Below are positions 1 to 17,517 of a stretch of 25,395 nt of DNA, in pieces. Source of the stretch: a virus; the IMG/VR virus record IMGVR_UViG_3300001450_000102, positions 12,128 to 37,522 of that record. One strand, given 5' to 3'. Numbering within the stretch: the first letter of the stretch is position 1; each line of letters begins with the position of its first letter. The position numbers and the translations under genes are program-made. Below the pieces are notes generated by a model. That model had not been told where the DNA came from. It saw only the letters and a program-made list of their open reading frames with translations, and ran no database searches.

Positions 1-1014
1 TTTCTAGCAGAAGGCACAGGACTACTACACTCTACTAACGCCGACTTAGGACATGGCTACAAGACAATGATGGGGGCTAACTCTATTACCGAGGCAGGTA
101 TGTTTGGAAGTCTAAACGAATTAGGAGATATAGCAGGTCGCCCTATTGCTAGAGAGATGTGCGGTGGCTTCTTAGGGTTTGAGGAGTTTAGTAGTATGTC
201 TGATGCGTCTAAGAAAGACCATAGCCTAGACATGAAGAATCAGTTACTTACGTCCCTAGATAATGGTAGAGTTCAGAAGGCATTGAAGATGGGATGGGTG
301 CAATACACTACCCGTTATACTATGTGGGCTGCTACACAACCTGCTAGGTTTGAATTAGATTCAGGGTTAGATAGAAGATTCTTTATTATTGATATTGAGA
401 TGAGTCCTGAGAAAGAGTTGAAGTTTAAACAGGCGCAACACAAACAGTCTAACATGACTAGGGAAACTAGAATAGAATTGGCGGGAAAGAATATAGCAAT
501 CAAGGAATGGATTCAAAGCCGTATGTTAGAAGCGGTTAGTAATCCTCCTAGCGGTATTCTATTTGATGATGATATAGCCGAGTGGATTGATAGACCTAGC
601 GTAAGGTCTTATGAGGCAGACCTGTTCCGAAGGTTGGCTATAGGTTATCACATGATGCAACCTGAGTATAGAGGTAATGTTCCTTTAGTAATAACTATGG
701 ATGATACTTTAAGGAGTATTCTATCTCAAAGCCTAACTCAAAGAAGAAGAGTGATGGATGCCGATACCGAATTAATCAAGACTACATTTTGGATGCAAGA
801 TTTATCTAAGTCTCAGGTTGTCAAGGAAGTATCTCGCATGGTTACTAACGGTGATTATCAATCCGCTAAGAGGTGGATTGTGGAAAACCTGCAAGGTCAA
901 TCGTGGTATGTCGAATACGAACCTGATGTAAAGAGAAGAGGGCGCAAAGGAGTTACTTGTAGATTCGGACACCCGGCAGTTACCGAAGAAATAGAATGGG
1001 GGGTAAAACAATGA
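1..1014 (+). CDS. AAA+ ATPase, MCM-like replicative helicase (5' truncated)
   Basis: The frame is open from base 1, so the N-terminal part, including any Walker A, lies outside the window. What remains shows a Walker B-like strand (GFLGFEEF), then a segment like the pre-sensor-1 hairpin of MCM proteins (NGRVQKALKMGWVQY), a sensor-1 strand (TMWAATQPARF, where MCM has AAANP) and an arginine-finger/sensor region (GLDRRFFIID). After these come a helical lid (SYEADLFRRLAIGYHMMQ) and a basic C-terminus that may be a winged helix. This order fits the MCM/AAA+ helicase group, so a role in unwinding the viral replication fork is likely. Other AAA+ families with the same hairpin insertion (MoxR/RavA-like) cannot be excluded without the N-terminus. 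It ends in an ATGA overlap with the next gene, so it is probably the first visible member of an operon. Confidence 0.6.
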   Translation, partial: FLAEGTGLLHSTNADLGHGYKTMMGANSITEAGMFGSLNELGDIAGRPIAREMCGGFLGFEEFSSMSDASKKDHSLDMKNQLLTSLDNGRVQKALKMGWVQYTTRYTMWAATQPARFELDSGLDRRFFIIDIEMSPEKELKFKQAQHKQSNMTRETRIELAGKNIAIKEWIQSRMLEAVSNPPSGILFDDDIAEWIDRPSVRSYEADLFRRLAIGYHMMQPEYRGNVPLVITMDDTLRSILSQSLTQRRRVMDADTELIKTTFWMQDLSKSQVVKEVSRMVTNGDYQSAKRWIVENLQGQSWYVEYEPDVKRRGRKGVTCRFGHPAVTEEIEWGVKQ

Positions 1015-1388
1015 GTAAGAGATTATCCGGCCACCTATCTAAAAGGAGTATGAGCCAACAGAACAATACTGTCAAGGCTGCCGCTAGGTATCTGATGAAG
1101 GTCAAACGACCCTGTTCGGCTTCTGAGGTGTTTCAACACATGACTACCAAGTCGGGGAAACTATATAGAAAATGTAGGGGTTCTTCGACATACAGTAAGT
1201 TACGGTCTAAGATGCTTAGACATCCTGTATTCACCAACCATAATACAACACCGAAAACATTTACGTGTAATATGACTCAGTATAATAGTTACTTTGACGA
1301 TGACCCTAGTTTCGACTGGACTAATACTGAAATGGTAAATGAAAGGAGAGCGTTAATTTCTAGTTTGGGGTGTTACAGGGATGAGTAA
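1011..1388 (+). CDS. Small basic winged-helix-like protein
   Basis: A 125-residue basic protein. The start at 1011 is chosen because it forms the ATGA stop/start overlap used across this genome; an in-frame ATG at 996 would add five residues and lengthen the overlap. Residues 20-75 read like a winged helix: helix (TVKAAARYLMKV), SASEVFQHM as the second helix, and a basic segment (STYSKLRSKMLRHPVF) as the recognition region. The pattern resembles the next gene (both have LRHP followed by an aromatic residue) and the genes at 3417 and 4724. The C-terminal 40 residues are acidic and of unknown role. DNA binding, perhaps transcriptional control or replication accessory function, is inferred from fold-like pattern only. 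Confidence 0.6.
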   Translation: MSKRLSGHLSKRSMSQQNNTVKAAARYLMKVKRPCSASEVFQHMTTKSGKLYRKCRGSSTYSKLRSKMLRHPVFTNHNTTPKTFTCNMTQYNSYFDDDPSFDWTNTEMVNERRALISSLGCYRDE

Positions 1389-1644
1389 GAACGGTAAGTT
1401 TCTAGATGATGCCTTGAACCGATACGGTGAAAAGAATAAAGGTAAGACCTTTAACACAACACAAGTGTTACATGGTTTAGTATTGAGGAACGGTAATAAG
1501 TTTATCAACTCAATCTACGTTAAGGGTAGCACTACAAGGAATCAAGCGGTATCATTACATTACGCTTTACTCAGACACCCTAGATATACTATAGCCGTAG
1601 AAAGAGTAAACAGTAAAGAGCCTAACCTATGGAGGTATGATTAA
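1381..1644 (+). CDS. Small winged-helix-like protein
   Basis: An 87-residue basic protein overlapping the previous gene by 8 bases. It follows the same plan as its upstream neighbour: an N-terminal helix, a T-rich turn and short helix (TFNTTQVLHGLVLRNG), a basic segment (RNQAVSLHYALLRHPRY) and a C-terminal beta strand ending in WRYD. The shared LLRHP plus aromatic pattern suggests tandem paralogues. It is probably a DNA-binding accessory factor; no specific function can be named. The stop codon overlaps the next start by one base (TAATG). Confidence 0.55.
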   Translation: MSKNGKFLDDALNRYGEKNKGKTFNTTQVLHGLVLRNGNKFINSIYVKGSTTRNQAVSLHYALLRHPRYTIAVERVNSKEPNLWRYD

Positions 1645-2270
1645 TGAAAAGAGAGATTGAGATACGAAGAAGATTATCTAAAGAGAATGATGCTTTCGCC
1701 ATAGAAGTATTGCGTTGGGTTCTTGATGGAGGTTGTGCATTTTGCGAACATACATTGAGGAAGGATTTTGAATTGGCATTGAAGAATCAAGATTACGAAC
1801 CCGCATACCTTGAAGCCAAGTATGGTTGGGAGGAAGGAACCGTCATTGAACATCTTGACAACCATATAGAATACGACCCACAGGAGGCTCAACATATAGA
1901 GAGTGCTAGGGTGCAGTCTATTTCTACTTTGGACGCAGCAGAGGATATTGTAATACGCATACAAGGGTATCTAAATGAACTAGAGGAACAGAAGCAACTA
2001 CAGGGTGGGGCGATTACATCGGACTTCGTTTCTGATGCTGCCAAATTAATAGGTCAAGCCAATACTTCCTTAAAGTTAGTAGGTCAGTTGAAGAAGGAGA
2101 TTGGAGTAGATTCACAGTTAATGTTAGCACAGGCACAGACCCAACACATCACTAGAATATTAGTTGAGACTTTGAAAGACCACCCTCAATTGTTAGATAC
2201 ATTTGAATTACAAATGGCCGCACTGAAAGCACCTTCAATAATTGACGCTTCATTTGAGGTGATAGAATGA
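1644..2270 (+). CDS. Conserved helical protein, possible small-terminase-like
   Basis: A 208-residue protein, mostly alpha-helical. Residues 25-75 carry a CAFCEH motif followed by a W-x-GTVIEHLDNHIEYDP stretch, so Cys and His residues could bind a metal or form an HTH-like unit. Residues 85-190 are predicted long helices with a coiled-coil look (AAKLIGQANTSLKLVGQLKK). An N-terminal DNA-binding unit followed by an oligomerising helical region is reminiscent of phage small terminase subunits, but no diagnostic motif is present and no large terminase is in the window. The gene sits in the first operon, starts one base inside the preceding stop and ends in an ATGA overlap. Function is uncertain. 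Confidence 0.5.
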   Translation: MKREIEIRRRLSKENDAFAIEVLRWVLDGGCAFCEHTLRKDFELALKNQDYEPAYLEAKYGWEEGTVIEHLDNHIEYDPQEAQHIESARVQSISTLDAAEDIVIRIQGYLNELEEQKQLQGGAITSDFVSDAAKLIGQANTSLKLVGQLKKEIGVDSQLMLAQAQTQHITRILVETLKDHPQLLDTFELQMAALKAPSIIDASFEVIE

Positions 2271-2533
2271 AATCGTGGAGAAGTAAGCCCAACCGTAGAT
2301 TATATAGAACAGCGATTAAAGAAAATGAGATGGGTAAACTATGCGAAGCCATGTATGATGACGGTCTTGTTGCTATGATTACCGCGAAAGGAATTAGATG
2401 GTATATTAACGGTTATTCTATTCAAAGCACATCAATATATGAAGCATGGGGTATGAGTAAATCTCAGTATGCTAGGCTCAAGGATTTTATCTACGAAACA
2501 AATGCTTATTTCTTTGTTAATAAAGGAGAATGA
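2267..2533 (+). CDS. Hypothetical protein, 88 aa
   Basis: A small basic protein starting in an ATGA overlap with the upstream gene. It has a basic N-terminus (KSWRSKPNRRLYR), a beta-like stretch (MITAKGIRWYING) and a C-terminal helix (SKSQYARLKDFIYETNAYFFV). Family not recognised. The spacing and co-orientation show it is translated with its neighbours. Its last codons contain the AAAGGAG Shine-Dalgarno sequence of the next gene. Confidence 0.55.
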   Translation: MKSWRSKPNRRLYRTAIKENEMGKLCEAMYDDGLVAMITAKGIRWYINGYSIQSTSIYEAWGMSKSQYARLKDFIYETNAYFFVNKGE

Positions 2534-2539
2534 GAAAAA

Positions 2540-3202
2540 ATGGGGGTAATAATTTTTACGAGGGATGCCTCGGTATTCAGAAAAGGTAAGCACGTTACTA
2601 TGTATAAGAATATAGACTGCGACCTATCCGATAAAGATACTACATACATCCTGTTAGGTTCTTTAACGTCTAAAGAAATTAAGGAGTGGCTACCTTTGGT
2701 TAGTGGTAGGTTGGTAGTCGAGACTGATAAGAATATTTCAATCCCTAAAGGATTAGAAGATGATATTGTTTTAGATAAGTCAATGAAGAAGAAGCCTACT
2801 AACTTTAGATGGGTCAAGGCACTCTTCTCATGGTCCGATAGAAGGAGAGTTTACAAGGTAATGAAAGGAGTTCCAGTCCCTCTATCTATGTCATTCGTTA
2901 GACAGAACAATAACGATATAGAATTGTATCGTAGGATAAGTAAGACATACAAACATTTGTCCGACGATTATACTAATGCAATCTTATGTTATGGAATTAA
3001 GGGTGAAAGTAAAACAATAAACTATCCCAAGAAAGTTAAGGAAGGAAAGACTGTGCCTAGTATATTTAGGAGTAATGATAAACACTGGGAAAGGCTAGTC
3101 CAGTGTGACGAAAACGTCGCTAATATTATACGCTCTAATGACTCGGAAAGTTTGCCGAAGGGAGTTAAGAAACGGAGGCAGAAGGTCACTAAATGGCTAT
3201 GA
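2540..3202 (+). CDS. Hypothetical protein, possible clamp-loader accessory
   Basis: A 220-residue basic protein preceded by AAAGGAG about 12 bases upstream of the ATG. Residues 30-75 form an alternating beta/alpha pattern (TYILLGSLTSKEIKEW then SGRLVVETDK), and residues 90-150 are helical with LFSWSDRRRVYKVMKG and ELYRRISKTYKHLSDDYTNAIL. This layout, a nucleotide-fold-like half without Walker motifs followed by a helical collar, loosely recalls clamp-loader delta or large-subunit proteins. That would complement the RFC-small-like gene at 5644. The resemblance is weak and by eye only. The last residues are strongly basic and end in KVTKWL, a C-terminus similar to that of the polymerase. Otherwise the protein is of unknown function. 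Confidence 0.5.
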   Translation: MGVIIFTRDASVFRKGKHVTMYKNIDCDLSDKDTTYILLGSLTSKEIKEWLPLVSGRLVVETDKNISIPKGLEDDIVLDKSMKKKPTNFRWVKALFSWSDRRRVYKVMKGVPVPLSMSFVRQNNNDIELYRRISKTYKHLSDDYTNAILCYGIKGESKTINYPKKVKEGKTVPSIFRSNDKHWERLVQCDENVANIIRSNDSESLPKGVKKRRQKVTKWL

Positions 3203-3387
3203 TGAATGAATTGAAGATAATACTAACTGATTTGTTTATACTAATTGGATTCTTCTTACTTGTTTGTGGTCCTATTATATTCTATTACGCCTACGCTTCC
3301 GGTATTCCTTTCGTCGTTGATGGTAATGCGCCTGAGAATCAATCCTTTGCAGAAGCCTCAATGTTCCTCTCTATGGAGAACGATTGA
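3199..3387 (+). CDS. Small single-span membrane protein
   Basis: A protein of about 62 residues with one strong membrane segment (DLFILIGFFLLVCGPIIFYY), a short charged N-terminus and an acidic C-terminal tail. The ATGA overlap at 3199 is taken as the start; an in-frame ATG at 3193 would add two residues. It is the last gene of the first operon and is followed by a promoter-like palindrome. It could anchor viral complexes to the membrane or act in lysis, but one span and no charged C-terminal hallmark do not allow a holin call. Confidence 0.5.
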   Translation: MMNELKIILTDLFILIGFFLLVCGPIIFYYAYASGIPFVVDGNAPENQSFAEASMFLSMEND

Positions 3388-3401
3388 TATAGTTAAACTA
3401 T
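3387..3401 (+). promoter_or_regulatory. Putative TATA box with overlapping operator palindrome
   Basis: ATATAG starts exactly 30 bases before the ATG at 3417, the same distance found for other promoters in this window. ATAGTT-A-AACTAT (3389-3401) is a perfect inverted repeat with 6-base arms and overlaps the TATA element, so a bound regulator would block the general transcription factors. The box is weaker than the TTTATATG boxes elsewhere. Confidence 0.4.
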
Positions 3402-3416
3402 CGTGGATATATTTAT

Positions 3417-3824
3417 ATGAGTGCTAACAATCGTCGCATCCGGCGAGTGATAGTAGAACTCTTATGGAACTACGGTGCTATGACTAAGGAAGCCGTTGCC
3501 GATTTACTTTCAAAGGAAAAGAATGTAAGGGCCATACCTTCACAGCATTCGCTATCCGCCCTACTTAGTAAGAATAGTCAAATCAAGGCTGTAGGTTCTG
3601 AGAAGGTTGAGAATGCTGTAGGTGCATCGGCAAGTCATTTGGTATATGATATTGACAGGAATCTAATAAGGGTAAAAGAAGATATTATCTATACTAGAAG
3701 TCCTACAGTTATGACTCCATCAGAAAGAGCAAGGGCTAGTAAATGTTCATGTGGCAAAATAAGAATAATGCCGGAAAACAGCGATATATGTCTACACTGT
3801 ATCAGAACGCCCAAAAAGGCATGA
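3417..3824 (+). CDS. wHTH protein with C-terminal zinc ribbon, putative regulator
   Basis: A 135-residue basic protein. The N-terminus (residues 5-70) has a winged-helix pattern (IRRVIVELLWNYGAMTKEAVADLLS, then a Ser-rich SQHSLSALLSK recognition-like helix), ending in a beta strand (LVYDI). The C-terminus has four cysteines, CSC at about residues 109-111 and CLHC at 126-129, spaced as in a small zinc ribbon. It stands alone between two promoter-like regions and has its own TATA-like element with a palindrome, consistent with an autoregulated transcription factor. The start is likely leaderless: no Shine-Dalgarno is visible. Specific target genes are unknown. Confidence 0.6.
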   Translation: MSANNRRIRRVIVELLWNYGAMTKEAVADLLSKEKNVRAIPSQHSLSALLSKNSQIKAVGSEKVENAVGASASHLVYDIDRNLIRVKEDIIYTRSPTVMTPSERARASKCSCGKIRIMPENSDICLHCIRTPKKA

Positions 3825-3836
3825 GCATCTAGTAGA

Positions 3837-3852
3837 TAGGTTTATTAACCTA
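3837..3852 (+). promoter_or_regulatory. TATA-box promoter within inverted repeat
   Basis: TTTATTAA at 3841-3848 is an archaeal TATA-like box preceded by purines (AGG) as in a BRE. It lies inside a perfect inverted repeat TAGGTT-TATT-AACCTA (3837-3852). Downstream, CCTAATGAA matches part of the CTTAATGAA element of the promoters at 9621 and 14105. The ATG at 3889 is 48 bases downstream, leaving room for a short leader with a GGTGAT Shine-Dalgarno. Confidence 0.5.
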
Positions 3853-3888
3853 ATGAACTAATTTCAATATAACGGAAAGGTGATACAC

Positions 3889-4122
3889 ATGAATAGAGCG
3901 CAGACACAAATACAAGTAGAATACGAGGCATTGATATTTATTATGGATAATGTAGATTTGACAGAATTGGAAAATAGATTAGTCCCTGATAATGACAAGG
4001 TAGCACAGGCTAGATACGAGAACGGAATACTCAATGTAAGAACATTGATTAACAACATGGCACAGCGAAGAACACACAGGCTTCCTAAGACCCATGTAGA
4101 CTATACGGCGGTGAAACAATGA
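3889..4122 (+). CDS. Hypothetical helical protein, 77 aa
   Basis: A small, mostly helical protein. The ATG at 3889 is preferred over the GTG at 3880 because AAAGGTGAT, a strong match to the archaeal anti-Shine-Dalgarno, ends four bases before it. Residues 10-60 form two amphipathic helices (EYEALIFIMDNVD and AQARYENGILNVRTLINNMA), and the C-terminus is basic with Arg and His. First gene of an operon running to 6585. Family not recognised. Confidence 0.55.
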   Translation: MNRAQTQIQVEYEALIFIMDNVDLTELENRLVPDNDKVAQARYENGILNVRTLINNMAQRRTHRLPKTHVDYTAVKQ

Positions 4123-4727
4123 ACATATTTATTTTAGACAAGAATCCAATACTAGCAGCCAAGATGTATTGTGATATGCACACGCCTAAGATGGTTGTAG
4201 AATTATTACAACAACTAGGGAGTGCAGTCATACGTCACGGCGCTATACCGGAACAGATGCCTATTACTCAGAAGGGTACGTTTCTCAAGGGTGGTTACCA
4301 TAACCATCCCGCTACCCGTTGGGTGGGAGAATCCCGCACTAACTACATATGGGCTTGTCATCATGCAGCCATGTTATGTGACGAGTATACTAAGCGTTTC
4401 GGTAAGGTTCACTTTTGCGAAGCAGGTATAGAACATCTATACACTATGCGTAACATGATACCCGAAGGCGACCTTACACCATTTGCACTATGTATGCCTG
4501 ACGAGCATAGACCTGACTACATCCATGTAGCAAGTAGTCCGTTTGATGTGCTTACAGATGAGGGTGGCAATAAAATCACTCATGCCACAGGAGACTTAGC
4601 AGTTGCAGCATACCGTGAATATTATCACGATAAGACGTTTGCAGCATGGAACAAGGGCAGAGATGCGCCCGACTGGTGGATTCCAACTATTGCTATACAT
4701 AGAGAATTAAGGAGGGACTTAGATTGA
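4119..4727 (+). CDS. Conserved phage protein of unknown function, His/Trp-rich
   Basis: A 202-residue protein matching a pattern I associate with a widespread viral family: N-terminal MNIFILD, then CDMHTPKMVVELLQQL, NHPATRWVGES, NYIWACHHAAMLCDEY, RFGKVHF, TPFALCMPDEH, AYREYYH and a C-terminal W...RDAPDWW. The ordered His, Cys, Asp and Trp residues suggest an enzyme or metal-binding protein, yet no catalytic function is established from what I can see. Length looks complete. It starts in an ATGA overlap with the previous gene and its stop overlaps the TTG start of the next. In this setting a nucleic-acid or nucleotide role is plausible but inferred only from neighbours. Confidence 0.65.
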   Translation: MNIFILDKNPILAAKMYCDMHTPKMVVELLQQLGSAVIRHGAIPEQMPITQKGTFLKGGYHNHPATRWVGESRTNYIWACHHAAMLCDEYTKRFGKVHFCEAGIEHLYTMRNMIPEGDLTPFALCMPDEHRPDYIHVASSPFDVLTDEGGNKITHATGDLAVAAYREYYHDKTFAAWNKGRDAPDWWIPTIAIHRELRRDLD

Positions 4728-4996
4728 AGGTTAAATCAAGATTAGATACATGGAGAGAGTTACCGGCTATCAAGGAGTATAGTGAGAAACATGGTTCCTT
4801 TACCGTTCAAGATATTTACCAATATCTTTTATCCCGAAACAAAAGGTTGGGTAGTAAGAACTCTATTGCTAACAAGTTGAGAAGGTCTAGGAGTATTACT
4901 AGACTAGGTGTTATCACTCAATCTAATAGAGGACTGTCTACATCTACACAGACGCGAAGCACACTATACATTTACTCAGGAGATGAAGAAGAATGA
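4724..4996 (+). CDS. Small winged-helix-like protein
   Basis: A 90-residue basic protein starting with TTG in a TTGA overlap with the upstream stop. An ATG start would lose the coupling. It has the same plan as the genes at 1011, 1381 and 3417: an N-terminal helix (AIKEYSEKHG), SFTVQDIYQYLLSR as the HTH pair, SKNSIANKLRRSRSI as a basic recognition-like helix, a Ser/Thr-rich loop and a terminal strand (TLYIYSG). It is probably a DNA-binding accessory or regulatory protein. Confidence 0.55.
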   Translation: MKVKSRLDTWRELPAIKEYSEKHGSFTVQDIYQYLLSRNKRLGSKNSIANKLRRSRSITRLGVITQSNRGLSTSTQTRSTLYIYSGDEEE

Positions 4997-5298
4997 CACC
5001 TAGACATTACTCACCTACAGTTATGCATCTTACCTTTAACGGTGACGATAGATTATGCGGGGCTAAAATACCTATCACGACATGGGGCGAACATAGTATG
5101 GGGGAGAAAGTATCTAGTAAATTAGATATATGTGGATTATGTAAAATAGAATACGAGAATAAGTTTGGTAGGAAATACATTAGAGGCAGAACTATTGCTA
5201 CAAGAAGAACAAGACCTACTAATGTTATTAGAACACTTAACTGGTATCATAATCAATGTCACGCGAAGATGACGAATGGGACAGGGTCTTTAGAATGA
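4993..5298 (+). CDS. Small zinc-finger-like protein
   Basis: A 101-residue basic protein in an ATGA overlap with the previous gene. It contains H-x-TFNG-x4-LCG near the N-terminus and CGLCKIEY near residue 47, so His/Cys residues could form one metal site. The C-terminal half is very basic (RGRTIATRRTRPTNVIR). Nucleic-acid binding is likely by composition. The family is not recognised. Confidence 0.5.
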   Translation: MTPRHYSPTVMHLTFNGDDRLCGAKIPITTWGEHSMGEKVSSKLDICGLCKIEYENKFGRKYIRGRTIATRRTRPTNVIRTLNWYHNQCHAKMTNGTGSLE

Positions 5299-5660
5299 TT
5301 AACCAATCCTTTACAGCCGAAAATAAGAAGCATCCTTCTGTTACTGATAGTATTTTAACAGGGGAAATAGTAGAAGATATATCACACGTTAGGTTCTGTC
5401 TAAATGCAGCAACTAATCCCTTCTACAACGGAGGGGATGAGAACTTAGACAGTCATGCTGAATCAGTCAATGGGTGGGATGAACACTTTATTAGCGGCAT
5501 GATGTTAGGTGTGGCTATGGCGTTAGACACGGATAGGAAAGTTAGGGGTATGGGTAGAGATACCCCTACTCATGTTGAATTATCAAAAGTATATCACAGT
5601 CTAAAGCAAGTAGTATTAGAAAGGAGAATCGGGGGCGGTTTAGATGTGGGAAGAAAATAG
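5256..5660 (+). CDS. Hypothetical protein, 134 aa
   Basis: An acidic, mostly helical protein. With the ATG at 5256 it overlaps the previous gene by 43 bases. The in-frame ATG at 5295 would form the ATGA junction typical of this genome and may be the real start; the extra N-terminal residues (SREDDEWDRVF) still look like protein. A Cys-containing central helix and a GMMLGVAMALD helix are visible. No family recognised. The gene overlaps the clamp-loader start by 17 bases, so it is probably co-translated with it. Confidence 0.5.
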   Translation: MSREDDEWDRVFRMINQSFTAENKKHPSVTDSILTGEIVEDISHVRFCLNAATNPFYNGGDENLDSHAESVNGWDEHFISGMMLGVAMALDTDRKVRGMGRDTPTHVELSKVYHSLKQVVLERRIGGGLDVGRK

Positions 5661-6585
5661 TAAGGATATTGTTGCTACTAAGAATGCATATGCGGGTGTG
5701 CTTTGGACCGAGAAGTATAGGCCAGTCTTTGATTCGATAATAGGGCAGAATGAAATAGTCGCCAAGTTTGAAGATACTTTTGTCGGCAATCATATATTCT
5801 ATAGTAGGAATGCAGGAACAGGTAAAACGTCTTTAGCCTACGCTTTAGCCGAGAAGTTTGATTCGCAGTTGTATGTCTTTAACGCTAGTAGTAAAAGGAC
5901 TAGAGGTATTGATTTCATCGAAGAAGAAATAATTCCCCTATGTAGTAATGGTTATTACAATAAAGTGATTCTATTGGACGAAGCAGACCAATTGACACCT
6001 GCGGCTCAATCAGCCTTGAAAGGAATTATGGAAGGCGCACACGCTAAGTTTATTTTAACCTGTAATGATTTATCTAAAATCACAGCATGGATTCAGTCTA
6101 GGTGCAGTATTCATTATTTCCATGAAATACCGAAGGAACTTGTGTATGGTAAATTACTTGAAATATCAAGCCTAGAAGGGATTGGAAATCGAGAAAGTAA
6201 ACTACACCTTATTGCCGAGGCACACGAAGGTGATTTACGGGCAGCGATAAACGCACTACAAGTATATTGTAACATAATAGATGACAAGGCGGCAGAACAA
6301 TTCCTTTTATCTCTAAAGGATGACGGACTAAACTGCGAACCTATTTTGAAGTTATGTTTTGTCGAGAAGGATTACGAAGCCGCTTTGAAACTAATAGGCG
6401 AATCTGATAATCTTTTAGAGGTTAGAACAAAGGTAAAAGAAATATTTAATTATGCTGTCAATTCCTCCGCCAAATCAGCATCTAAATTGAAAGTCATTGA
6501 CGCGGCAGTAACCGCCGAAAGGGATTTACTGCTAGGCGTAGACCCTAGAATCACACTCCATAATTTCGTGAGGCTATGTATATGA
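5644..6585 (+). CDS. rfcS: Clamp loader ATPase, RFC small-subunit-like
   Basis: A 313-residue AAA+ protein that would load the sliding clamp onto primed DNA. Signature order: the RFC box WTEKYRP (residues 21-27), GQNEIV, Walker A AGTGKT (57-62) in a context SRN instead of the usual GPP, Walker B LLDEAD (110-115), sensor 1 LTCND (138-142), the SRC arginine-finger motif (152-154) and sensor 2 EGDLRAAIN (195-203). Length matches archaeal RfcS, and no intein is present. The C-terminal helical collar is present but divergent. It heads the replication core, upstream of the SSB, clamp and polymerase. The function is clear from the family; whether it works as a homo-oligomer or with a large subunit is unknown. 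Confidence 0.92.
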   Translation: MWEENSKDIVATKNAYAGVLWTEKYRPVFDSIIGQNEIVAKFEDTFVGNHIFYSRNAGTGKTSLAYALAEKFDSQLYVFNASSKRTRGIDFIEEEIIPLCSNGYYNKVILLDEADQLTPAAQSALKGIMEGAHAKFILTCNDLSKITAWIQSRCSIHYFHEIPKELVYGKLLEISSLEGIGNRESKLHLIAEAHEGDLRAAINALQVYCNIIDDKAAEQFLLSLKDDGLNCEPILKLCFVEKDYEAALKLIGESDNLLEVRTKVKEIFNYAVNSSAKSASKLKVIDAAVTAERDLLLGVDPRITLHNFVRLCI

Positions 6586-6639: not shown

Positions 6640-7845
6640 ATGGATAACAGTATGATAGATAATATAGCGAAAAAAGTAAATGTAAGTGCAGACATAATGA
6701 GGCAGAAAGCAGAAGCAATTCTAGCCTTACAAGGTGGGGCATGGAAGAATGCAGGTAAGTCAGATGATGACTGTAATGTATTAGCATTAAGAGTTGCAGC
6801 ACGACAACTAACAACCGAACAAGCGGCACTGAGCCGTTCCGGTGCAGTAACATACGAAGGTATGTTTGTCTCAGTTCCACGAAGCAAGGAATGGGGTAAA
6901 ATCCTGTATAACAAAATGACTAACCAACTTCGTGTTGCTAGTGAAGATGTTAGACAGTCCTTTGTTGATAATGGAACTGTAGTTTTGTTTGAGGATAATC
7001 ACGACGGTTCTTTTACCCGTCATTCTAAACAAGATTATTTCGGTTCTGAAACAGCAGACGTTACTGAACTACCTAGACACACACAACGATTAGATGACAA
7101 CACACACTTCTATGTTGTATGGGATAAGAACAACAAGACTTTCCCGTCCGGTGATGCTAACTTTAAGTATGGCCGACCTAGACCTCAAGATGAGAGAGAA
7201 AGAACTATGCTATTCTTAGGAAGGGTTACAGGAGATAATTCAGACCCTAAACTAATTACTGTAAAGGCTACACAAGCAGCAGCCGATGTTCAATACCCTA
7301 CTTTCACACCATGCACCTTTGCTATGCGTCCTAACGCTGCCGGAACTGTTGCCTATGTGAAGCCTAAAGTATCTACCTTTACTGCTAGTCAGTCAGTTGC
7401 GTCTATCTTTAATACCGCGCCAGTAATTTATGAAGATGGTTCAATCAAAGGCGGTGTTGCTTACGATGTAGTAGGAATGGAAAATACACTTTCAGGATTA
7501 AGTGACCTAGCATCATACTACGATACTTTCAACGGTAAAGATGGTTGGTGGGATAGAAGTCTTATTGTTGTCGGTGAAGTAATTCACATTGACCCTAGAG
7601 ATAACGGCGGCTACGTCCTAATGGTTTCTGATGTAGATATTATGTCATCAGCAGAAGGTGTAGAAATATACGTTCCTTCTGAACAAGACGATAAAGTTAC
7701 CTTTGCTGTCGGAACTAAGGTTCTGATGCTAGGACAGGCTTGGAGAACTAAAGAAGGTGAAGATAGACTATCAGTTAATGGATGGTATGCTTTCGATGAA
7801 ATCGCACCAGTCGTAGCAGAAGATGACTCAGGGTGGGATGAGTGA
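6640..7845 (+). CDS. ssDNA-binding protein, OB-fold RPA/SSB-like
   Basis: A 401-residue protein likely to coat single-stranded DNA at the viral fork. The strongest evidence is the C-terminal OB-fold (about residues 308-390: LIVVGEVIHIDP, GYVLMVSDVD, VEIYVPSE, GTKVLMLGQAWR) followed by an acidic tail with an aromatic residue (EDDSGWDE), the layout of SSB-type proteins whose tails recruit partners. A second OB-like region lies near residues 185-230 (TMLFLGRVTGDNSD). The N-terminal 60 residues are helical. It has its own promoter, a strong Shine-Dalgarno and a GTGA overlap into the GroES-like gene. Position among replication genes supports the call, although no zinc finger typical of archaeal RPA is visible. 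Confidence 0.7.
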   Translation: MDNSMIDNIAKKVNVSADIMRQKAEAILALQGGAWKNAGKSDDDCNVLALRVAARQLTTEQAALSRSGAVTYEGMFVSVPRSKEWGKILYNKMTNQLRVASEDVRQSFVDNGTVVLFEDNHDGSFTRHSKQDYFGSETADVTELPRHTQRLDDNTHFYVVWDKNNKTFPSGDANFKYGRPRPQDERERTMLFLGRVTGDNSDPKLITVKATQAAADVQYPTFTPCTFAMRPNAAGTVAYVKPKVSTFTASQSVASIFNTAPVIYEDGSIKGGVAYDVVGMENTLSGLSDLASYYDTFNGKDGWWDRSLIVVGEVIHIDPRDNGGYVLMVSDVDIMSSAEGVEIYVPSEQDDKVTFAVGTKVLMLGQAWRTKEGEDRLSVNGWYAFDEIAPVVAEDDSGWDE

Positions 7846-8069
7846 ACGCCACCGGAGAATATGTCTTAATAGAACTTGTAACTAAGGAGACATCTTCTTT
7901 CGTCGTAAAAGATAATTTTTCAATAGTGTCTGTAGGGGAAGGTGTGCCTCCACACCTTTCTCTACTACCTATGGATTGTATTGTTTGTGACGATAGTAAG
8001 ATAATGAAAGTGAGCAAGTATCTATTCATACACTACAGTAATATTTTAGGAGTTGAAACAAATGAGTGA
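7842..8069 (+). CDS. groES: GroES-like co-chaperonin (Cpn10), short
   Basis: A 75-residue beta-rich protein starting with GTG in a GTGA overlap. Order of GroES landmarks: EYVLIELV (the D-x-VLV-x strand), FSIVSVGEG (equivalent of GxVVAVGxG), LLPMDCIVCDDSKIMKV (equivalent of VKxGDxVLF) and SKYLFIHYSNILGVE (equivalent of EEYLILxExDILAVxE). It lies directly before a GroEL-like gene and overlaps it by 8 bases, as in a groESL operon. Canonical Cpn10 has about 95 residues; the missing ones fall in the mobile loop, which here is only about TKETSSFVVKDN and lacks the GGIVL motif that docks onto GroEL. Identification rests on pattern plus synteny, so it is probable and not certain. Confidence 0.72.
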   Translation: MNATGEYVLIELVTKETSSFVVKDNFSIVSVGEGVPPHLSLLPMDCIVCDDSKIMKVSKYLFIHYSNILGVETNE

Positions 8070-9618
8070 GATTAAACGTGGAGTAGAACTGAGAGAATCT
8101 TTGATGGAAGGAATTAATTTAGTGGCTGATGTAATTAGACCTACATTGGGCGCAGGTGCAAGCACCGTTCTTTTAGAGAGGGAAAACAACTTTCCTTTGG
8201 CGTTGAATGACGGTGTGACTATTGCTAAGTCCATAAGTCATCCCGACCCATTTGTTAATATGGGGGTTAATTTGATACAACAAGTCTCTAGTGAGGCACA
8301 GGCTAAGTCAGGTGACGGCACAACTACCGCTACCGTCCTAGCACAGAAGATGTGTGAAGGGGCTATTGTTTATTGTAATGATTACTCTAAGAATATGTTA
8401 GATGTAGTAGATGAAATGGAAACCTCTATTGATTCTATGATACAAGGTCTTACCGAACTGGCGGTTCCTTTAGACTCTAAACAACAATTATTCAATGTGG
8501 CTTATGTAGCGGGTAACAATGATTCCGAGATAGGAGGAATACTTTCAAAGGCATTCGATGTAGACAACAAGTTTTCTACTGTTACTCTACAACCTAGTAA
8601 GAATACTTCTACCTTTATAGAAACGCAGAATGGTTTCGAGATACCTTCGGGTTACATTTCACATTACTTTGCCCCGGAAGGTAAACTAGATATGAAGGAT
8701 GCTTATGTCGTTTTGACTACAGAAGTTATTGATGACTTTAGCACATTGATACCTGCCCTTGAGATTGCTAAGGGAGATAACAGACCTGTCCTATTCATAT
8801 GTAGAAATGTTAGTGGTAATGCTCTACCTAATCTTTTAGTTAATGTGGCTAACAAGGCCATCAATGCCTGTATAGTTAAAGTCCCTGCTTGGGGTGAAGA
8901 AGCAGAAGCATGGTTAGACGACATTGGCTGTATAACAGGCTCTAAAGTATTCAAGGAAGGTGCGGGAGATACAATTACCGAACTTGTAAAAGAGGACTTG
9001 GGGGATTCAGTTACTATAACGGTGAAAGATACTTCTACTATCATATCTCAGAATCTTGATACGGACATTAACGTGGATGAATATATATTATCTATAGGTG
9101 AAGGCATCGAAGAATTAAATGATTGGGATGCTGAGAAATTAAACAACAGAATCGCTAGATTACAGGGTAAAGTATCTATCGTTCATGTTGGTGGTAATAG
9201 TGAGTTGGAAATACGTGAACGTCTTGAGAGATTTGACGATGCCGTTAATGCTACTAAGGCCGCTTTACAGTCGGGAGTAGTCAAAGGCGGAGGTCTAGCG
9301 TATTATCAAGTATTGAACTCGGATGCCGGATGGAGAAACTCTATCATGGATATAATACAAGAAGCCTGTGAGGAGATACCTATAGTTATTAGATACAATA
9401 GCGAACGTCATAGTGCAAGAGGAGTAAGAGGTTCGACACAACAAAAGGATTGGTTAAATGGTCGGTGGTATGACGCTAAAGCAAAGGAACCTCTTAGTGT
9501 TGTAGGTTACAGGGTGATAGACCCATTAGACGTAGTAATCTCTTCTTTGCGTAGTGCTATGAGTATTAGTAGATTAGTTTTGACGACGGAGGTCGCTGTA
9601 GCATTACCTACTGAGTAG
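8062..9618 (+). CDS. groEL: Group I chaperonin, GroEL-like (Cpn60)
   Basis: A 518-residue ATP-dependent folding chaperonin of the bacterial (group I) type. The ATG at 8062, with GGAG ten bases upstream, is preferred to the TTG at 8053. Equatorial motifs: TLGAGA in place of TLGPKG (about residues 28-33), NDGVTIAK (Asp50), SGDGTTTATVLAQ (Asp85) and RFDDAVNATKAAL with the hydrolysis Asp, then GVVKGGG. The apical domain has GYISHYF, matching the substrate/GroES-binding Tyr-Tyr-Phe of GroEL, and a VKVPAWG segment. The C-terminus ends LTTEVAVALPTE without the Gly-Gly-Met tail. Active-site acids are intact, so it should be functional. It is paired with the short GroES-like gene; client proteins (capsid, tail or polymerase) are unknown. 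Confidence 0.95.
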   Translation: MSEIKRGVELRESLMEGINLVADVIRPTLGAGASTVLLERENNFPLALNDGVTIAKSISHPDPFVNMGVNLIQQVSSEAQAKSGDGTTTATVLAQKMCEGAIVYCNDYSKNMLDVVDEMETSIDSMIQGLTELAVPLDSKQQLFNVAYVAGNNDSEIGGILSKAFDVDNKFSTVTLQPSKNTSTFIETQNGFEIPSGYISHYFAPEGKLDMKDAYVVLTTEVIDDFSTLIPALEIAKGDNRPVLFICRNVSGNALPNLLVNVANKAINACIVKVPAWGEEAEAWLDDIGCITGSKVFKEGAGDTITELVKEDLGDSVTITVKDTSTIISQNLDTDINVDEYILSIGEGIEELNDWDAEKLNNRIARLQGKVSIVHVGGNSELEIRERLERFDDAVNATKAALQSGVVKGGGLAYYQVLNSDAGWRNSIMDIIQEACEEIPIVIRYNSERHSARGVRGSTQQKDWLNGRWYDAKAKEPLSVVGYRVIDPLDVVISSLRSAMSISRLVLTTEVAVALPTE

Positions 9619-9650
9619 GGTTTATATGCTTAATGAAGCGAGGTATGTTT
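9618..9650 (+). promoter_or_regulatory. TATA-box promoter, leaderless Sak4/clamp/PolB operon
   Basis: GGTTTATATGCTTAATGAAG (9619-9638) contains TTTATATG at 9621-9628 and is identical over 20 bases to the promoter at 14103. The first base of the box is exactly 30 bases before the ATG at 9651, so transcription should begin at or near that ATG. The upstream ATG at 9633 lies inside the promoter element and is unlikely to be used. Confidence 0.65.
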
Positions 9651-10592
9651 ATGTCGGCTTGGGGAACTAATCAGAATAGCGCAGTAACAACGAATGCACC
9701 GAAGGTAACTTATGGTGAGGAATACTTTAGAGAGAGATTTAATAATAAACAGGCTCAATCAGTAGATATTAGAATGGCTCTTGTAGCACGAGAGAATTGT
9801 GGTAAGACTGGTCTTGCCCTGTCTATGCTTGATGAGGAAATCAAAGCGGGAAAGAAAATAGCAATCTTCGATGTGGATAACTCAGCGAAGTCTACGGTAG
9901 ATTATATCTACCCTAACGCTGAAAATATTATGGTAATACCGTTACATGACGAGACTGATGATTCTATCTTTAACGAAGATAATTCAGTTAATCATAAATC
10001 TTTACTCGATAAAACATCTTGGTTTGTAAACATCTTGGCTGATGAAATAGCAGCAGCACCGGATGATTGGGGAGGAGTTATCTTTGACGGTGGCTCTACC
10101 TTCTTAAAATGGTGCGAACACGCTATGCGAACCTCTCTACTAGATAGAGGAGTTATTGAAACGGAAGATGGGACATTCAATCAGAAGGAATGGAGAGAGA
10201 GGAATAGACTCAATCGTGGTGTGCTGAATAGAATACACAGCCTTCCTGTAAACAAGGTATTCTTTACTTTCCACTTGAAAGATATTAAAGAGTTCATGGA
10301 TGACGGAACAGGTAAGAAAGTTATGATGAGTGTAGGCGAAGTTCCTGAATGGGAGAAAGGAACCATGAGGTTGTTCAGTCAGCAGATATTCCTAGCAAGG
10401 TATATGAAGAAAGCAGACTTGGCTACTGGTGTCAAAGGCGATAAGACTTTGGCTCAAGGTGAATGGGTAATCAAAGGAACTATAGAAGAAATGAAAGGTA
10501 AGAACATGGAACATCTAGGTTCGACGCATACTATTCTAAGCGTTAAAGATAACAAAGTTACATGGACTGGCTTGCCTATATTGAAGTGGTGA
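9651..10592 (+). CDS. RecA-fold ATPase, Sak4/RadA-like recombinase
   Basis: A 313-residue P-loop ATPase. The start at 9651 (MSAWGTNQN) is chosen from the promoter geometry; starts at 9633 or later are less consistent. The Walker A is ALVARENCGKT (about 43-53), in which the first Gly of GxxxxGKT is Ala, and Walker B is GGVIFDGGST (Asp146). A TFHLKD strand follows near residue 205. This layout fits the Sak4 group of phage single-strand annealing/RadA-core proteins, which cooperate with SSB in recombination-dependent replication. It heads the clamp-HTH-polymerase operon and ends with LPILKW, resembling the polymerase C-terminus. It might instead be another AAA_24-type ATPase. Confidence 0.75.
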   Translation: MSAWGTNQNSAVTTNAPKVTYGEEYFRERFNNKQAQSVDIRMALVARENCGKTGLALSMLDEEIKAGKKIAIFDVDNSAKSTVDYIYPNAENIMVIPLHDETDDSIFNEDNSVNHKSLLDKTSWFVNILADEIAAAPDDWGGVIFDGGSTFLKWCEHAMRTSLLDRGVIETEDGTFNQKEWRERNRLNRGVLNRIHSLPVNKVFFTFHLKDIKEFMDDGTGKKVMMSVGEVPEWEKGTMRLFSQQIFLARYMKKADLATGVKGDKTLAQGEWVIKGTIEEMKGKNMEHLGSTHTILSVKDNKVTWTGLPILKW

Positions 10593-10594
10593 AT

Positions 10595-11500
10595 ATGTCT
10601 AACCCTATTAGTAATAATTACTTCCTAGTTGATACTGGGGCGTTGGAGATTCTTCTCAAGAAAACCCAACGGCCCCATTTCATAGGGGGTAGTAAAACAA
10701 ATCAAGTTACCTCTTGTGTTTTGGTCTGTGTCAATGGAAGGATGCGAACTACTTCTATCGTTAAAGATGGTGTGACTTCGGTATCTCACTTTAGTGTGCC
10801 TCTTTTGGAGAACGGCGAATCTTACGTTAGCGATAGAACATACGACGGTAACATATATGTTTCAGACATTGATACTTTACTCGGTGTTTTAAAATATCAT
10901 GGTGGTAAATTAAAAATACATCAAAGTCCTTCTAGTAATAAAGTTCGTATTATATCTAATAACAAGACTACTACTATAGACGCTAATCCAAATGCTAAGG
11001 CATTTAGTAATAGTAATGAGACACTATCAACTTGGTTGAATAAATCAATTGGTTTAATGGCTAAAATAAATCAGACTTCTGATTTCAATGAACCTGTAAC
11101 TTATACTACGGCTAGTGGTGAATCCTTTGAACCGACTGTGGATATGAACTTCGAGGCGATTGATTTGTATGAAGCACTTAGAACTGATAACATGAACGGT
11201 CAGAAACTAAACCGCTATACATTTGAACTGCACGATAGGGGGTTGTATGTTGGAACTGGTGCTTACAATAAAGGTAAGAACACTACAACAATTGATGCTA
11301 CCAATCATTTTCTTAATGAGTGGACGCTACCCGACGCAGTAACATTTTCCGGTGGGCTAGAGCAGACTCTAGCACACATCAACGGTAAGGTCAGATTATC
11401 TATATTTGATTTTACTGCATACGAACAAGGACATAGACTATTACTTTCTTTTGGAGAGGGCGACGATGACTTTATCCTACAAGCGAGTGTAACGAGGTGA
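10595..11500 (+). CDS. Sliding clamp, PCNA-like
   Basis: A protein of about 301 residues with the alternating beta-strand/short-helix pattern of DNA clamps. Start at the ATG at 10595, two bases after the preceding stop; in-frame GTG and ATG codons further upstream lie inside the previous gene. Visible signals: VDTGALEILLKK at the start, SHFSVPLLENGE, a NIYVSDIDTLLGVLKYHGGKLKIH stretch resembling the interdomain strand/helix of clamps, KVRIISNNKTTTID, and a matching C-terminal domain (FEAIDLYEALRTDN, RYTFELHDRGLYVG, HRLLLSFGEGDDDFILQASV). It is longer than cellular PCNA (about 245-250) and divergent. Position between the Sak4-like ATPase and PolB, with an RFC-like loader nearby, supports the assignment. 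Confidence 0.6.
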   Translation: MSNPISNNYFLVDTGALEILLKKTQRPHFIGGSKTNQVTSCVLVCVNGRMRTTSIVKDGVTSVSHFSVPLLENGESYVSDRTYDGNIYVSDIDTLLGVLKYHGGKLKIHQSPSSNKVRIISNNKTTTIDANPNAKAFSNSNETLSTWLNKSIGLMAKINQTSDFNEPVTYTTASGESFEPTVDMNFEAIDLYEALRTDNMNGQKLNRYTFELHDRGLYVGTGAYNKGKNTTTIDATNHFLNEWTLPDAVTFSGGLEQTLAHINGKVRLSIFDFTAYEQGHRLLLSFGEGDDDFILQASVTR

Positions 11501-11505
11501 TTATA

Positions 11506-11892
11506 ATGTATAAGAAAACACATGAAGTAAAATTGAATGAAAAACAACTGAACGAATTAATGGATGGAGATATTGATAAGTTACAACTTAATCAACTGAT
11601 GACAGAAAGACCAAGTGAGTCTACTAATACTGTTTTCAGCGTTAAAGTAACCATACAAGAATGTCCTACTCAAGCGCACTATAGAAACCGTGAATGGATG
11701 GTCGAGAACTATTGTAATCAATACCGTTCTTGCGCTGATATAGGAGAACAGTTTGGTGTATCTGCTGTAGCAATACACCAATGGTTAGCCAAACATAGTA
11801 TCACTCCTAGAAGTAGAGGATTCAAGAAAGAATACCTAAAGGCAGGTAGAAAGTTTTTAGCACGACATGGTGAGAACCTTGATAGTAGATAA
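11506..11892 (+). CDS. Helix-turn-helix DNA-binding protein
   Basis: A 128-residue basic protein. GAGGTGAT, which also carries the stop codon of the clamp gene, ends four bases before the ATG at 11506, so this start is preferred to the GTG at 11497. Residues 62-105 contain a clear HTH: NREWMVENYCNQYRSCADIG, then EQFGVSAVAIHQWLAKHSI, similar to HTH units that recognise DNA in transposases and sigma-like factors. The N-terminal 45 residues (VKLNEKQLNELMDGD) look like an amphipathic oligomerisation helix. It overlaps the PolB start by 26 bases. Likely a regulator or a replication-site binding factor. Confidence 0.65.
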   Translation: MYKKTHEVKLNEKQLNELMDGDIDKLQLNQLMTERPSESTNTVFSVKVTIQECPTQAHYRNREWMVENYCNQYRSCADIGEQFGVSAVAIHQWLAKHSITPRSRGFKKEYLKAGRKFLARHGENLDSR

Positions 11893-14098
11893 GTTAAGGG
11901 GTAAAGCAGTAAGCATTAGATACCGTGACCCTAAAACGAAAGAAAGGAAAAGCGTTAGTCATAGTAACTACTACCCCTACTTCTTTGTTGCCGATGAATC
12001 GGCAGAATACATCGAAAGTGTAGGTAAGGAAACTGGCTACAAGGGTGTCTACGGAGAATCCCTTACTAAGATAGTTTGTAGTGACCCATACACTATGAGA
12101 GAGACTGCGTATAATCAAGGAGATTATACATGGGAAGCAAATCTGTCTCATGCTAATCGTGTAATGGTTGATAGGTTACAGGAACATGATGCTATACCTA
12201 ATTATGAACATCGAACATGGTTCTTAGATTGTGAGTGGAGTCCGGCTACTAATAGAATGAGGGTTATAGTAGTTTATGATAACTATACTGATAAGGAGTT
12301 TGTATGGTTTGTAGAACCATCTCTAAAGGAAAAAACATCATTCAGTAAATACGGTGACTTTGAATATGAAACGCCCGCATTAGGGTTCCCTGATGAGAAG
12401 AGTATGTTGATACATTTTATCAGGCACATGGATAAGCACGACCCCGATATACTAACTGGTTGGTATGTCACTGGTGCTGATATTAAGACGATATTTGAGA
12501 GGTGTAGGGCTAACGGTATAGAACCTAGAGCCATGTCTCCTAAGAGGTCCATACGATATGAGTTCGGTGATTGGGAACAGCCCATAGTAGGTAGGATGTG
12601 TATTGACCTGATGATTGCTTTCTCTAAGATATGGGAGTTAAAGAACGGTAAGTTACCTGCTTACAGTTTGAGTGAAGTGTCTAAGGAAGTTCTAGGTGAA
12701 GATAAGGTGGATTTGCCCGACGGACACGACACTTATTATTCAGACCTACCCCTCTACATACATTATTGTAGACAGGACGTTAGACTTCTACCTAGATTAG
12801 ATTCAACAGTAAATGCATTGGGTTATTATACAGCGTTACAGCACTTAGTTCAATGTGAGATTCGTAGCACACCTCACATAACTCAAATGTTTACTATTTT
12901 AGCGTTGAAAGATAAAGAGTTTACAGGTAGGATTCCATCAAGACCAAAGTTTGCTAAGAAGGAATATGAAGGTGCTAATGTTATGCAGCCTGTAGCGGGA
13001 GTGTATAGCAAAATAGGTATCTTGGACGTTAAGGCTATGTATCATAGTAATGTCAGTAAGTATGGTATCTCATGGGAGACTTTAGATTACAACGGCGTTG
13101 ATTGTGGTAATGGTAGTAAGTTTAACCTTGAAAGTAAAGGGTTGTTATGTAGACAAATGGATTACATGACTAACATGAGAAATGAATACAAGATGAGGGT
13201 AATAATGTCCGACAGTGATACTGAAAGAAATAAATGGGAGACTATGCAGTTTGCTTGTAAATCTCTTGTAGCGTCAATGTATGGTGTGGCGGGTGACGCG
13301 AAGTATGGTCTTTACCATCCCGAAGTAGCGGCGGCGATAACCTATACAAGTAGAAGCACTCTACAGGAATTGAAGGTAGAGGCAGAAGCATTAGGGATGA
13401 AAACAATTTACGGTCACACTGATTCTATCTTCTGTGAAATTAACACGCCGGAAGAAGGTGTGGCAGCACTGAAAATAATCAACGACAATATGAGTCCGAT
13501 AGAAACCGAGTTCGAGAAGTGGTGTCCTAGAATTATTATTGCTGCTAAGAATAGATATGCAGGTCTAGTGTCTTGGACTGATGGGAAATACCACGAACCT
13601 AAGTCATACTTCAAAGGGATTGAATTGAAGCAAAGCCGTATGCCTCCTATTATGAAGGAGAGTATGACTGATGTTATACAGGGAATACTCAACGATAAAT
13701 CGGAAACCGATGTGACACTCGAACTATCTACTTTAATTTCTAAAGTAGTCTCTAAGGATATTGACCCGTTGGATATATGTATGAAAGGTAGATTGAGACA
13801 GGACCTAAGTAAATACAAGGTGTTGTCAGGTTCGTCAGCAGGGGCGGCTTGGGCCAATGAATATCTAGGTAAGAATTATAGAAAGGACTCCTACTTCTTA
13901 TCTACTATAACCCCTAAAGGAAAGTATATAGCATTCGATGAACCTAGTGAAATCGAAGGTGTTACTGAAATAGGTTACAAGATATTGGCTGAGAGATTTA
14001 TAGTCAATAAAGCAAAACCTTACTATGAATTAGCAGGTTGGTCTATGCAACCACTAGTTAATTCTCTAGAAGGTGTAGCGGGTATAAAGTGGCTATAA
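11867..14098 (+). CDS. polB: DNA polymerase family B with 3'-5' exonuclease
   Basis: A 743-residue replicative polymerase. Exonuclease: FLDCEW (Asp121, Glu123), TGWYVTGADI (Asp205; the usual Asn is absent) and YCRQD (Tyr300, Asp304). Polymerase: motif A LDVKAMYHSN (Asp387), motif B KSLVASMYG (465-473, Ala where family B usually has Asn), motif C YGHTDS (515-520, His517 for the usual Asp, Asp519 kept), and KNRY (561-564). The A-to-B distance is short, so the fingers are compact. No inteins. It overlaps the HTH gene by 26 bases and ends in GIKWL. Downstream of the clamp in one operon. Family certain; which metal ligands are used at motif C is worth checking. Confidence 0.97.
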   Translation: MVRTLIVDKLRGKAVSIRYRDPKTKERKSVSHSNYYPYFFVADESAEYIESVGKETGYKGVYGESLTKIVCSDPYTMRETAYNQGDYTWEANLSHANRVMVDRLQEHDAIPNYEHRTWFLDCEWSPATNRMRVIVVYDNYTDKEFVWFVEPSLKEKTSFSKYGDFEYETPALGFPDEKSMLIHFIRHMDKHDPDILTGWYVTGADIKTIFERCRANGIEPRAMSPKRSIRYEFGDWEQPIVGRMCIDLMIAFSKIWELKNGKLPAYSLSEVSKEVLGEDKVDLPDGHDTYYSDLPLYIHYCRQDVRLLPRLDSTVNALGYYTALQHLVQCEIRSTPHITQMFTILALKDKEFTGRIPSRPKFAKKEYEGANVMQPVAGVYSKIGILDVKAMYHSNVSKYGISWETLDYNGVDCGNGSKFNLESKGLLCRQMDYMTNMRNEYKMRVIMSDSDTERNKWETMQFACKSLVASMYGVAGDAKYGLYHPEVAAAITYTSRSTLQELKVEAEALGMKTIYGHTDSIFCEINTPEEGVAALKIINDNMSPIETEFEKWCPRIIIAAKNRYAGLVSWTDGKYHEPKSYFKGIELKQSRMPPIMKESMTDVIQGILNDKSETDVTLELSTLISKVVSKDIDPLDICMKGRLRQDLSKYKVLSGSSAGAAWANEYLGKNYRKDSYFLSTITPKGKYIAFDEPSEIEGVTEIGYKILAERFIVNKAKPYYELAGWSMQPLVNSLEGVAGIKWL

Positions 14099-16788: not shown

Positions 16789-17517
16789 ATGCTTCTTGTA
16801 GATGACCGGGAAAGTGAGAAAGTAAAAGCCAAATTATTGATGCGTCTAGGTGATGCTGATTTAGGTAAAGAAGGAACTATGAAAGTTAGAAGATTGCCTA
16901 CGGGTGATTATGTTATGGGAACATGGGGTATAGAGGCTAAAGAAATCAATGACCTCTATAGAAGTATCATAGGCATGGGTAGAAATAGAACTATACTAGA
17001 CCAACTGAGAGATTTACAAGATGACTTTGAGAATCCTATATTGGTAGTCTATGGAACTAAATACAAACCTTACGTTGTAGGCAAAGGAACTCCCAACTCT
17101 AAGTCAATGGCTATAGAATTGGCTAGAATGAAAAAGGTGAATCAATCGTTCAAGATGACATTCTACCAAAGGTTTCCCAAAATTAAATATATGGAACTTC
17201 TAACTATGGATGATTTCTGCGACTGGTTGGTTAGTAATCATACTCAGATGGCTATTCAGGGTGCGGTTACTAGAGATAAATTACCGGCTAAAGAAAAGAA
17301 ACTACATGATATGAAGAAGTTGGATAATAGAATCAAGTCTCTATCTTCTATAGAAGGTGTGTCCGTAGAGGCCGCCGAAAATCTTTTGCGGAAGTTTGGT
17401 TCCATACCTAAAATATTAAACTCTAAGACTACTCAGAAAAGTCTTATGGAAGTGCAAGGTATAGGTAGAGGTAGGGCTAAAGATATTTTAGCCCTGAGAG
17501 ATAAATACACTAATTAG
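16789..17517 (+). CDS. XPF/ERCC4-family nuclease with helix-hairpin-helix domain
   Basis: A 242-residue structure-specific nuclease. The ERCC4 domain has LLVDDRE (residues 2-8), PTGDYVMG (37-44), then GIEAKEINDLYRSI (48-60), where the catalytic ERK is EAK (Glu49, Ala50, Lys51) with Asp55 downstream. The C-terminus (about 183-240) carries two HhH units (SLSSIEGVSVEAAENLLRKF and LMEVQGIGRGRAKDIL) for branched-DNA binding as in XPF/Hef. No helicase part is present. It may cleave 3'-flap or fork structures in replication restart or resolve branched replication products. It is the last plus-strand gene and overlaps the giant minus-strand gene by 8 bases at their stops. Confidence 0.85.
   Translation: MLLVDDRESEKVKAKLLMRLGDADLGKEGTMKVRRLPTGDYVMGTWGIEAKEINDLYRSIIGMGRNRTILDQLRDLQDDFENPILVVYGTKYKPYVVGKGTPNSKSMAIELARMKKVNQSFKMTFYQRFPKIKYMELLTMDDFCDWLVSNHTQMAIQGAVTRDKLPAKEKKLHDMKKLDNRIKSLSSIEGVSVEAAENLLRKFGSIPKILNSKTTQKSLMEVQGIGRGRAKDILALRDKYTN

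Follow-up and report, generated by a model that had tools for sequence, protein, structure and literature searches.

The questions raised by this locus are what a group I GroES-GroEL pair does in a virus whose replication genes are of archaeal type and where such a pair came from. The window, which is the whole stretch of DNA that we analyzed, is 25,395 nt long and covers positions 12,128 to 37,522 of the IMG/VR record IMGVR_UViG_3300001450_000102 (37.5 kb for the full virus record). On its plus strand, a gene for an RFC small-subunit-like clamp loader (5644 to 6585; PHROG clamp loader, 1e-36, and Pfam AAA) is followed by genes for a 401-residue SSB/RPA-like protein with tandem OB folds (6640 to 7845), a 75-residue GroES-like co-chaperonin (7842 to 8069, GTG start), GroEL (8053 to 9618 as listed, TTG start), and a Sak4-like P-loop ATPase (9633 to 10592, with an alternative ATG start at 9651; Pfam AAA_24, 1e-6). 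The SSB-like and Sak4-like genes form the left and right flanks of the chaperonin cassette. Farther downstream are a possible sliding clamp gene (10562 to 11500), which is conserved near Sak4 in loci L006 and L011 and whose product has no match in a sequence search of the PDB, and a family B DNA polymerase (PolB) gene (11867 to 14098; Pfam DNA_pol_B, 6.5e-30), for which the closest annotated relatives in the phage collection that we searched are haloviruses. Pfam and PHROG searches identified an XPF-like nuclease as a further archaeal-type replication gene around the pair. A separate open reading frame at 4119 to 4727 may encode a pyrimidine-dimer DNA glycosylase (PF03013, E = 8e-4, below the cut-off) and is kept in related viruses.

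The protein encoded at 6640 to 7845 has no match in a sequence-family search. Its AlphaFold2 (AF2) model (pLDDT, 84.9) is matched by Foldseek to Teb1, POT1, RPA, and Deinococcus SSB, all with low TM-scores, and the support for its predicted identity as an SSB is thus structural, coming from these tandem OB-fold matches. The GTG start of the GroES-like gene overlaps the SSB stop codon in the sequence GTGA (7842 to 7845), so the operon coupling to SSB that had been predicted from the DNA alone does appear to exist. Scans of the window for sigma-70 promoters and for terminators gave results at chance level.

The GroEL open reading frame matches PF00118 (Cpn60_TCP1; E = 6e-28) and the PHROG "chaperonin groEL" family (phrog_5725; E = 3e-100, residues 4 to 517), and it exceeds the cut-off of NCBIfam PRK12849. 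It scores 340 bits against TIGR02348 (residues 11 to 517), which is below the equivalog cut-off of 582, versus ~30 bits against thermosome models (30 for thermosome_alpha). The GroEL motifs first read from this open reading frame, including GYISHYF, VKVPAWG, and NDGVTIAK, are all present. Based on these family matches, we conclude that the predicted product of 8053/8062 to 9618 is a genuine group I chaperonin. We doubt the listed TTG start at 8053, since a Shine-Dalgarno-like AGGAG within the GroES gene (8048 to 8052) lies 9 nt before an ATG at 8062 and since the protein read from that ATG lines up with the start of other GroELs. The true start is therefore probably ATG 8062, which gives a protein of 518 amino acids and an 8-nt overlap with the 3' end of the GroES gene. 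Equivalents of D52, D87, and D398 (E. coli numbering) are invariant in all 27 of the aligned viral GroELs, and the apical substrate sites are mostly still hydrophobic in the viral GroELs examined. The invariant aspartates and the retained hydrophobic sites suggest that viral GroEL is likely to form an ATP-driven, substrate-binding ring. The GGM tail is absent from the viral GroELs and present in host GroELs.

As a single sequence, the 75-residue protein has no match among the Pfam, PHROG, and NCBIfam Cpn10 models. We therefore turned to a profile of 22 viral homologues, each of which is encoded immediately before a GroEL gene on a related contig. Searched against the PDB, this profile matches T4 gp31 (E = 1.5e-5) and Thermus Cpn10 (6e-4). 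Individually, nine of the 22 homologues give weak matches to PF00166 (best E = 0.0026) and 10 match PHROG 931, the gp31 family (best, 1.5e-5), while the window protein itself matches neither. The AF2 model of the 75-residue protein has a mean pLDDT of 83.8, its sole segment below 50 being the mobile-loop region (residues 17 to 22), and every one of its top 27 Foldseek matches is a Cpn10 or gp31 structure. A failure of this protein to fold as Cpn10 would have spoken against the original prediction; the profile and the model instead identify it as a Cpn10-fold protein, and the prediction of a viral group I GroES-GroEL pair within an archaeal-type replication module is borne out, the RFC-like, PolB, and XPF-like neighbors included.

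The lid is unusual in its mobile loop. The hydrophobic anchor of the loop, which resembles the GIVL anchor of GroES, reads GLVL or GLII in the majority of homologues; the window protein has SFVV. The stretch that follows the anchor, ~10 residues long in bacterial and host GroES, is missing, and the protein has no roof hairpin. In profile-profile comparisons, viral GroES is closest to gp31 (97.4%, score of 63, E = 1e-11), followed by a mixed GroES set (96.3%, score of 53) and host GroES (86.4%, score of 35). Because the host GroES profile is shallow, this ranking is only suggestive of a viral GroES that is closest to gp31 and far from host GroES. gp31 is the best match of viral GroES both among PDB sequences and by profile-profile comparison, and the two share the V-x-SVG-x-x-VP and HY-x-x-I motifs as well as the lack of a roof hairpin. 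We considered roof loss as a gp31 trait and dropped it: host GroES is also roofless, so roof loss does not discriminate between possible origins of the lid. There are also differences from gp31. gp31 partners the host GroEL and has a 22-residue mobile loop, which is longer than that of GroES (PMC6318259), whereas the window virus encodes its own GroEL and has a loop that falls short of the cellular GroES length. A tblastn search of the phage collection with two further viral GroES proteins gave no match.

The locus is not an assembly artefact, since an identical copy (100% GroEL identity) is present on a separate contig of 71.7 kb. Three further copies, 84% identical, were found on other contigs, and the chimera that might have undone the original prediction is thereby ruled out. 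The 71.7-kb contig also carries terminase, portal, tape-measure, and tail protein genes. At its end is a 1,912-residue frame rich in collagen-like GPTGPQG repeats (L282, positions 3 to 5741), which is probably a tail fiber. In the window, a 2,388-residue open reading frame on the minus strand (17510 to 24676) has, on the longer contig, a tape-measure-like gene as its neighbor; it matches no family and is likely to encode a tail protein. Tailed-virus morphogenesis genes thus occur together with PolB, the clamp loader, and other replisome genes, the combination by which Magrovirales are recognized. We infer that this is a magrovirus-type head-tailed virus, a likeness drawn from published descriptions of magroviruses (Aoguangviridae and unclassified Magrovirales; clades 2 to 4 of MGII viruses), which are also tailed archaeal viruses with PolB, a clamp loader, and group I GroEL and GroES. 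The exemplar magrovirus genome is ON649702. Genomes of Aoguangviridae are stated to be 90 to 100 kb, in contrast to our 71.7-kb contig. Haloviruses (Druskaviridae) are more distant relatives of Aoguangviridae according to the ICTV (PMC10768690). GroEL has been reported from MGII virus clades 2 to 4 (Nishimura 2017, PMC5332604) and both GroEL and GroES from Aoguangviridae (ICTV 2023, PMC10768690); the gene pair itself is therefore not new in magroviruses.

Using the Sak4 neighbor as a query, we collected 80 related loci from IMG/VR contigs. The gene order RFC-SSB-GroES-GroEL-Sak4 is repeated in many of them, a point that the original prediction had asked to be checked, and most contigs with a chaperonin have the pair or a lone GroEL between SSB and Sak4. 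The GroES and GroEL genes of these relatives overlap or are separated by no more than ~10 nt. Where the cassette is missing, SSB runs directly into Sak4, its stop codon overlapping or adjoining the Sak4 start. Among 30 related records searched whole, which are linear and may be incomplete, 10 have a Cpn60 and 20 have none of any kind, several of the latter being 60 to 68 kb long; no thermosomes were found in the cassette-less viruses. The cassette is therefore dispensable in this virus family. On the Sak4 tree, the distribution of the chaperonin needs at least 4 changes. Relatives thus carry GroES and GroEL, GroEL alone, or neither, which makes the pair an optional cassette. The GroEL-only state, with GroEL between SSB and Sak4 and no recognizable GroES on the available contigs, was observed at L077, L080, L082, L084, and L088 to L092, a lineage that includes a 68.6-kb contig. 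In a single case (L087, 1602 to 4297), a GroES-like gene and GroEL lie downstream of Sak4.

The original prediction assumed that the host has no group I chaperonin. This holds for most candidate hosts, including the complete MG-II genome G001, in which a search at a loose threshold found group II sequences only; group II sequences were also found in the other MGII genomes searched. It does not hold for the 54 of 293 Poseidoniia genomes (about 20%), reached through a 16S probe sequence, that encode a GroEL above the curated cut-off. Cpn10 is present in 64 of the 293, and both fractions are lower bounds because most of these genomes are MAGs or come from single cells. Some candidate hosts therefore already own the machine, and both chaperonin groups had earlier been reported from MGII genomes by Nishimura et al. 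(PMC5332604). Searches for a host link found neither the viral Sak4 gene in 340 Poseidoniia genomes nor any tRNA genes that could tie the virus to a host.

In Poseidoniia, groES and groEL are adjacent genes with neighboring coordinates, in the same order as in the virus. Together with the mainly bacterial occurrence of group I chaperonins, this could mean that a groESL operon was recently captured from a host or a bacterium, or that the locus is an assembly chimera. Host and viral GroELs share NDG at the nucleotide site, where most sampled bacteria have KDG. However, Poseidoniia GroELs score ~700 bits against TIGR02348 compared with 340 for the window GroEL, and Poseidoniia retain both the GGM tail of GroEL and an unshortened mobile loop in GroES, neither of which the window virus has. 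The GroEL tree that the original prediction called for contained 27 viral, 16 Poseidoniia, 11 phage, and 5 bacterial sequences, the bacterial sampling being thin. The 27 viral GroELs are monophyletic (100/100), and they are not nested inside host genes but form one clade next to them, attached on the branch that separates the host clade (99/98) from the phages and bacteria, a position that is kept after removal of the longest branches. Poseidoniia GroELs are the nearest cellular clade. The tree has no outgroup, and the direction of transfer between viral and host genes is not readable from it. Phage GroELs (phiEL and Vibrio, Flavobacterium, and Cellulophaga phages) are also viral group I proteins, some with a GroES gene nearby, but they are only ~30 to 34% identical to the window GroEL, and a topology joining them to the viral clade was rejected (AU test, P = 0.012). 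The deep, separate viral clade argues that viral GroEL is an old viral lineage and not a recent capture. No cellular relative emerged when contigs of cellular genomes were scanned with the window GroEL as query. Given this clade, the distance of viral GroES from host GroES, and the identical and 84%-identical loci on other contigs, we regard recent capture or chimerism as highly improbable.

One MGII MAG (G102) seemed to offer an intermediate to the viral GroELs, and we rejected it: its GroEL, which precedes a Cpn10 gene (contig C149, 8935 to 10738), groups with that of a Flavobacterium phage, and phage DNA contaminating the bin is the probable source of this contig. Some records of the phage collection (L239, L234, and L094) carry ordinary bacterial groES-groEL genes and look to be of bacterial rather than phage origin.

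The branch preceding the GroELs of the window and L006 carries ~1.8 changes per site. Such long branches, the short GroES, the GroEL-only lineages, and the lack of a GGM tail would all fit a degenerating remnant, in which GroEL evolves fast, GroES is being lost, and the folding machine no longer works. Against this, the reading frames are intact in every complete copy of the pair found, the catalytic residues are invariant, and the GroES fold motifs persist in homologues that share just 16 to 30% identity with the window copy. We therefore find decay an unlikely explanation, if somewhat less so than recent capture.

Based on the folds, the catalytic and substrate-site residues, the gene order, and the single viral clade, we consider it probable that this is the groES-groEL operon of a magrovirus-type virus, placed in its replication operon, and that it supplies a capped, ATP-driven folding chamber in the infected archaeon. 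The pair would have been inserted as one cassette between SSB and Sak4, with translation probably coupled to that of SSB. Unfolded proteins would be bound by an ATP-driven GroEL ring, with the 75-residue co-chaperonin as its cap, the two acting together as a private chamber. The clients would come from the virus, with abundantly made virion proteins the likeliest, and the lid may be adapted to the viral GroEL in preference to that of the host. Several observations count against this proposal: many relatives have no Cpn60, one lineage has GroEL without a recognizable GroES, and the GroEL-binding mobile loop is ~10 residues shorter than in cellular GroES and modeled with low confidence.

Other clients are possible, given that the operon lies next to replication genes and that many relatives have no chaperonin. 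The pair might be a stress or host-support module that supplements or replaces the host chaperonin for replication proteins or host enzymes, with no role in virion assembly. Its site, flanked by SSB and Sak4, belongs to the replication operon and not to the structural module, so that expression with the replication genes is expected, and many relatives lack the pair even though they retain virion proteins to fold. With no Cpn60 in 20 of 30 related contigs, the high-level need for virion assembly put forward in the original prediction is still a presumption. The phage precedent, on the other hand, is for capsid-protein folding by T4 gp31 (PMC6318259), to which the viral GroES profile is nearest; the lack of a roof in gp31 leaves a wider opening, which is thought to aid folding of the 56-kDa capsid protein (PMC6318259). 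We take host support to be a minority reading, although a far stronger one than decay, and favor the private folding chamber.

We also offer, as a tentative idea about the origin of this folding chamber, that the operon may be a mosaic of a Poseidoniia-like archaeal GroEL and a gp31-class viral lid without half of its GroEL-binding loop. Such a mosaic would be a host-independent machine with a different contact between lid and barrel, repeatedly gained or lost at a fixed site. The minimal gp31-like lid and the repeated gain or loss at one site are possibly new, and further work is best directed at the short lid, its likeness to gp31, and the on/off cassette. Magroviruses are said to be common throughout the surface ocean, with uncultured hosts. 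A complete if highly divergent group I chaperonin encoded by a virus, in hosts that depend mainly on group II thermosomes, would be a clean system for finding the clients of a private chamber, and the tiny GroES-like lids would probe the minimum mobile loop needed for opening and closing a GroEL ring. The on/off pattern among close relatives would allow clients that covary with the cassette to be sought.
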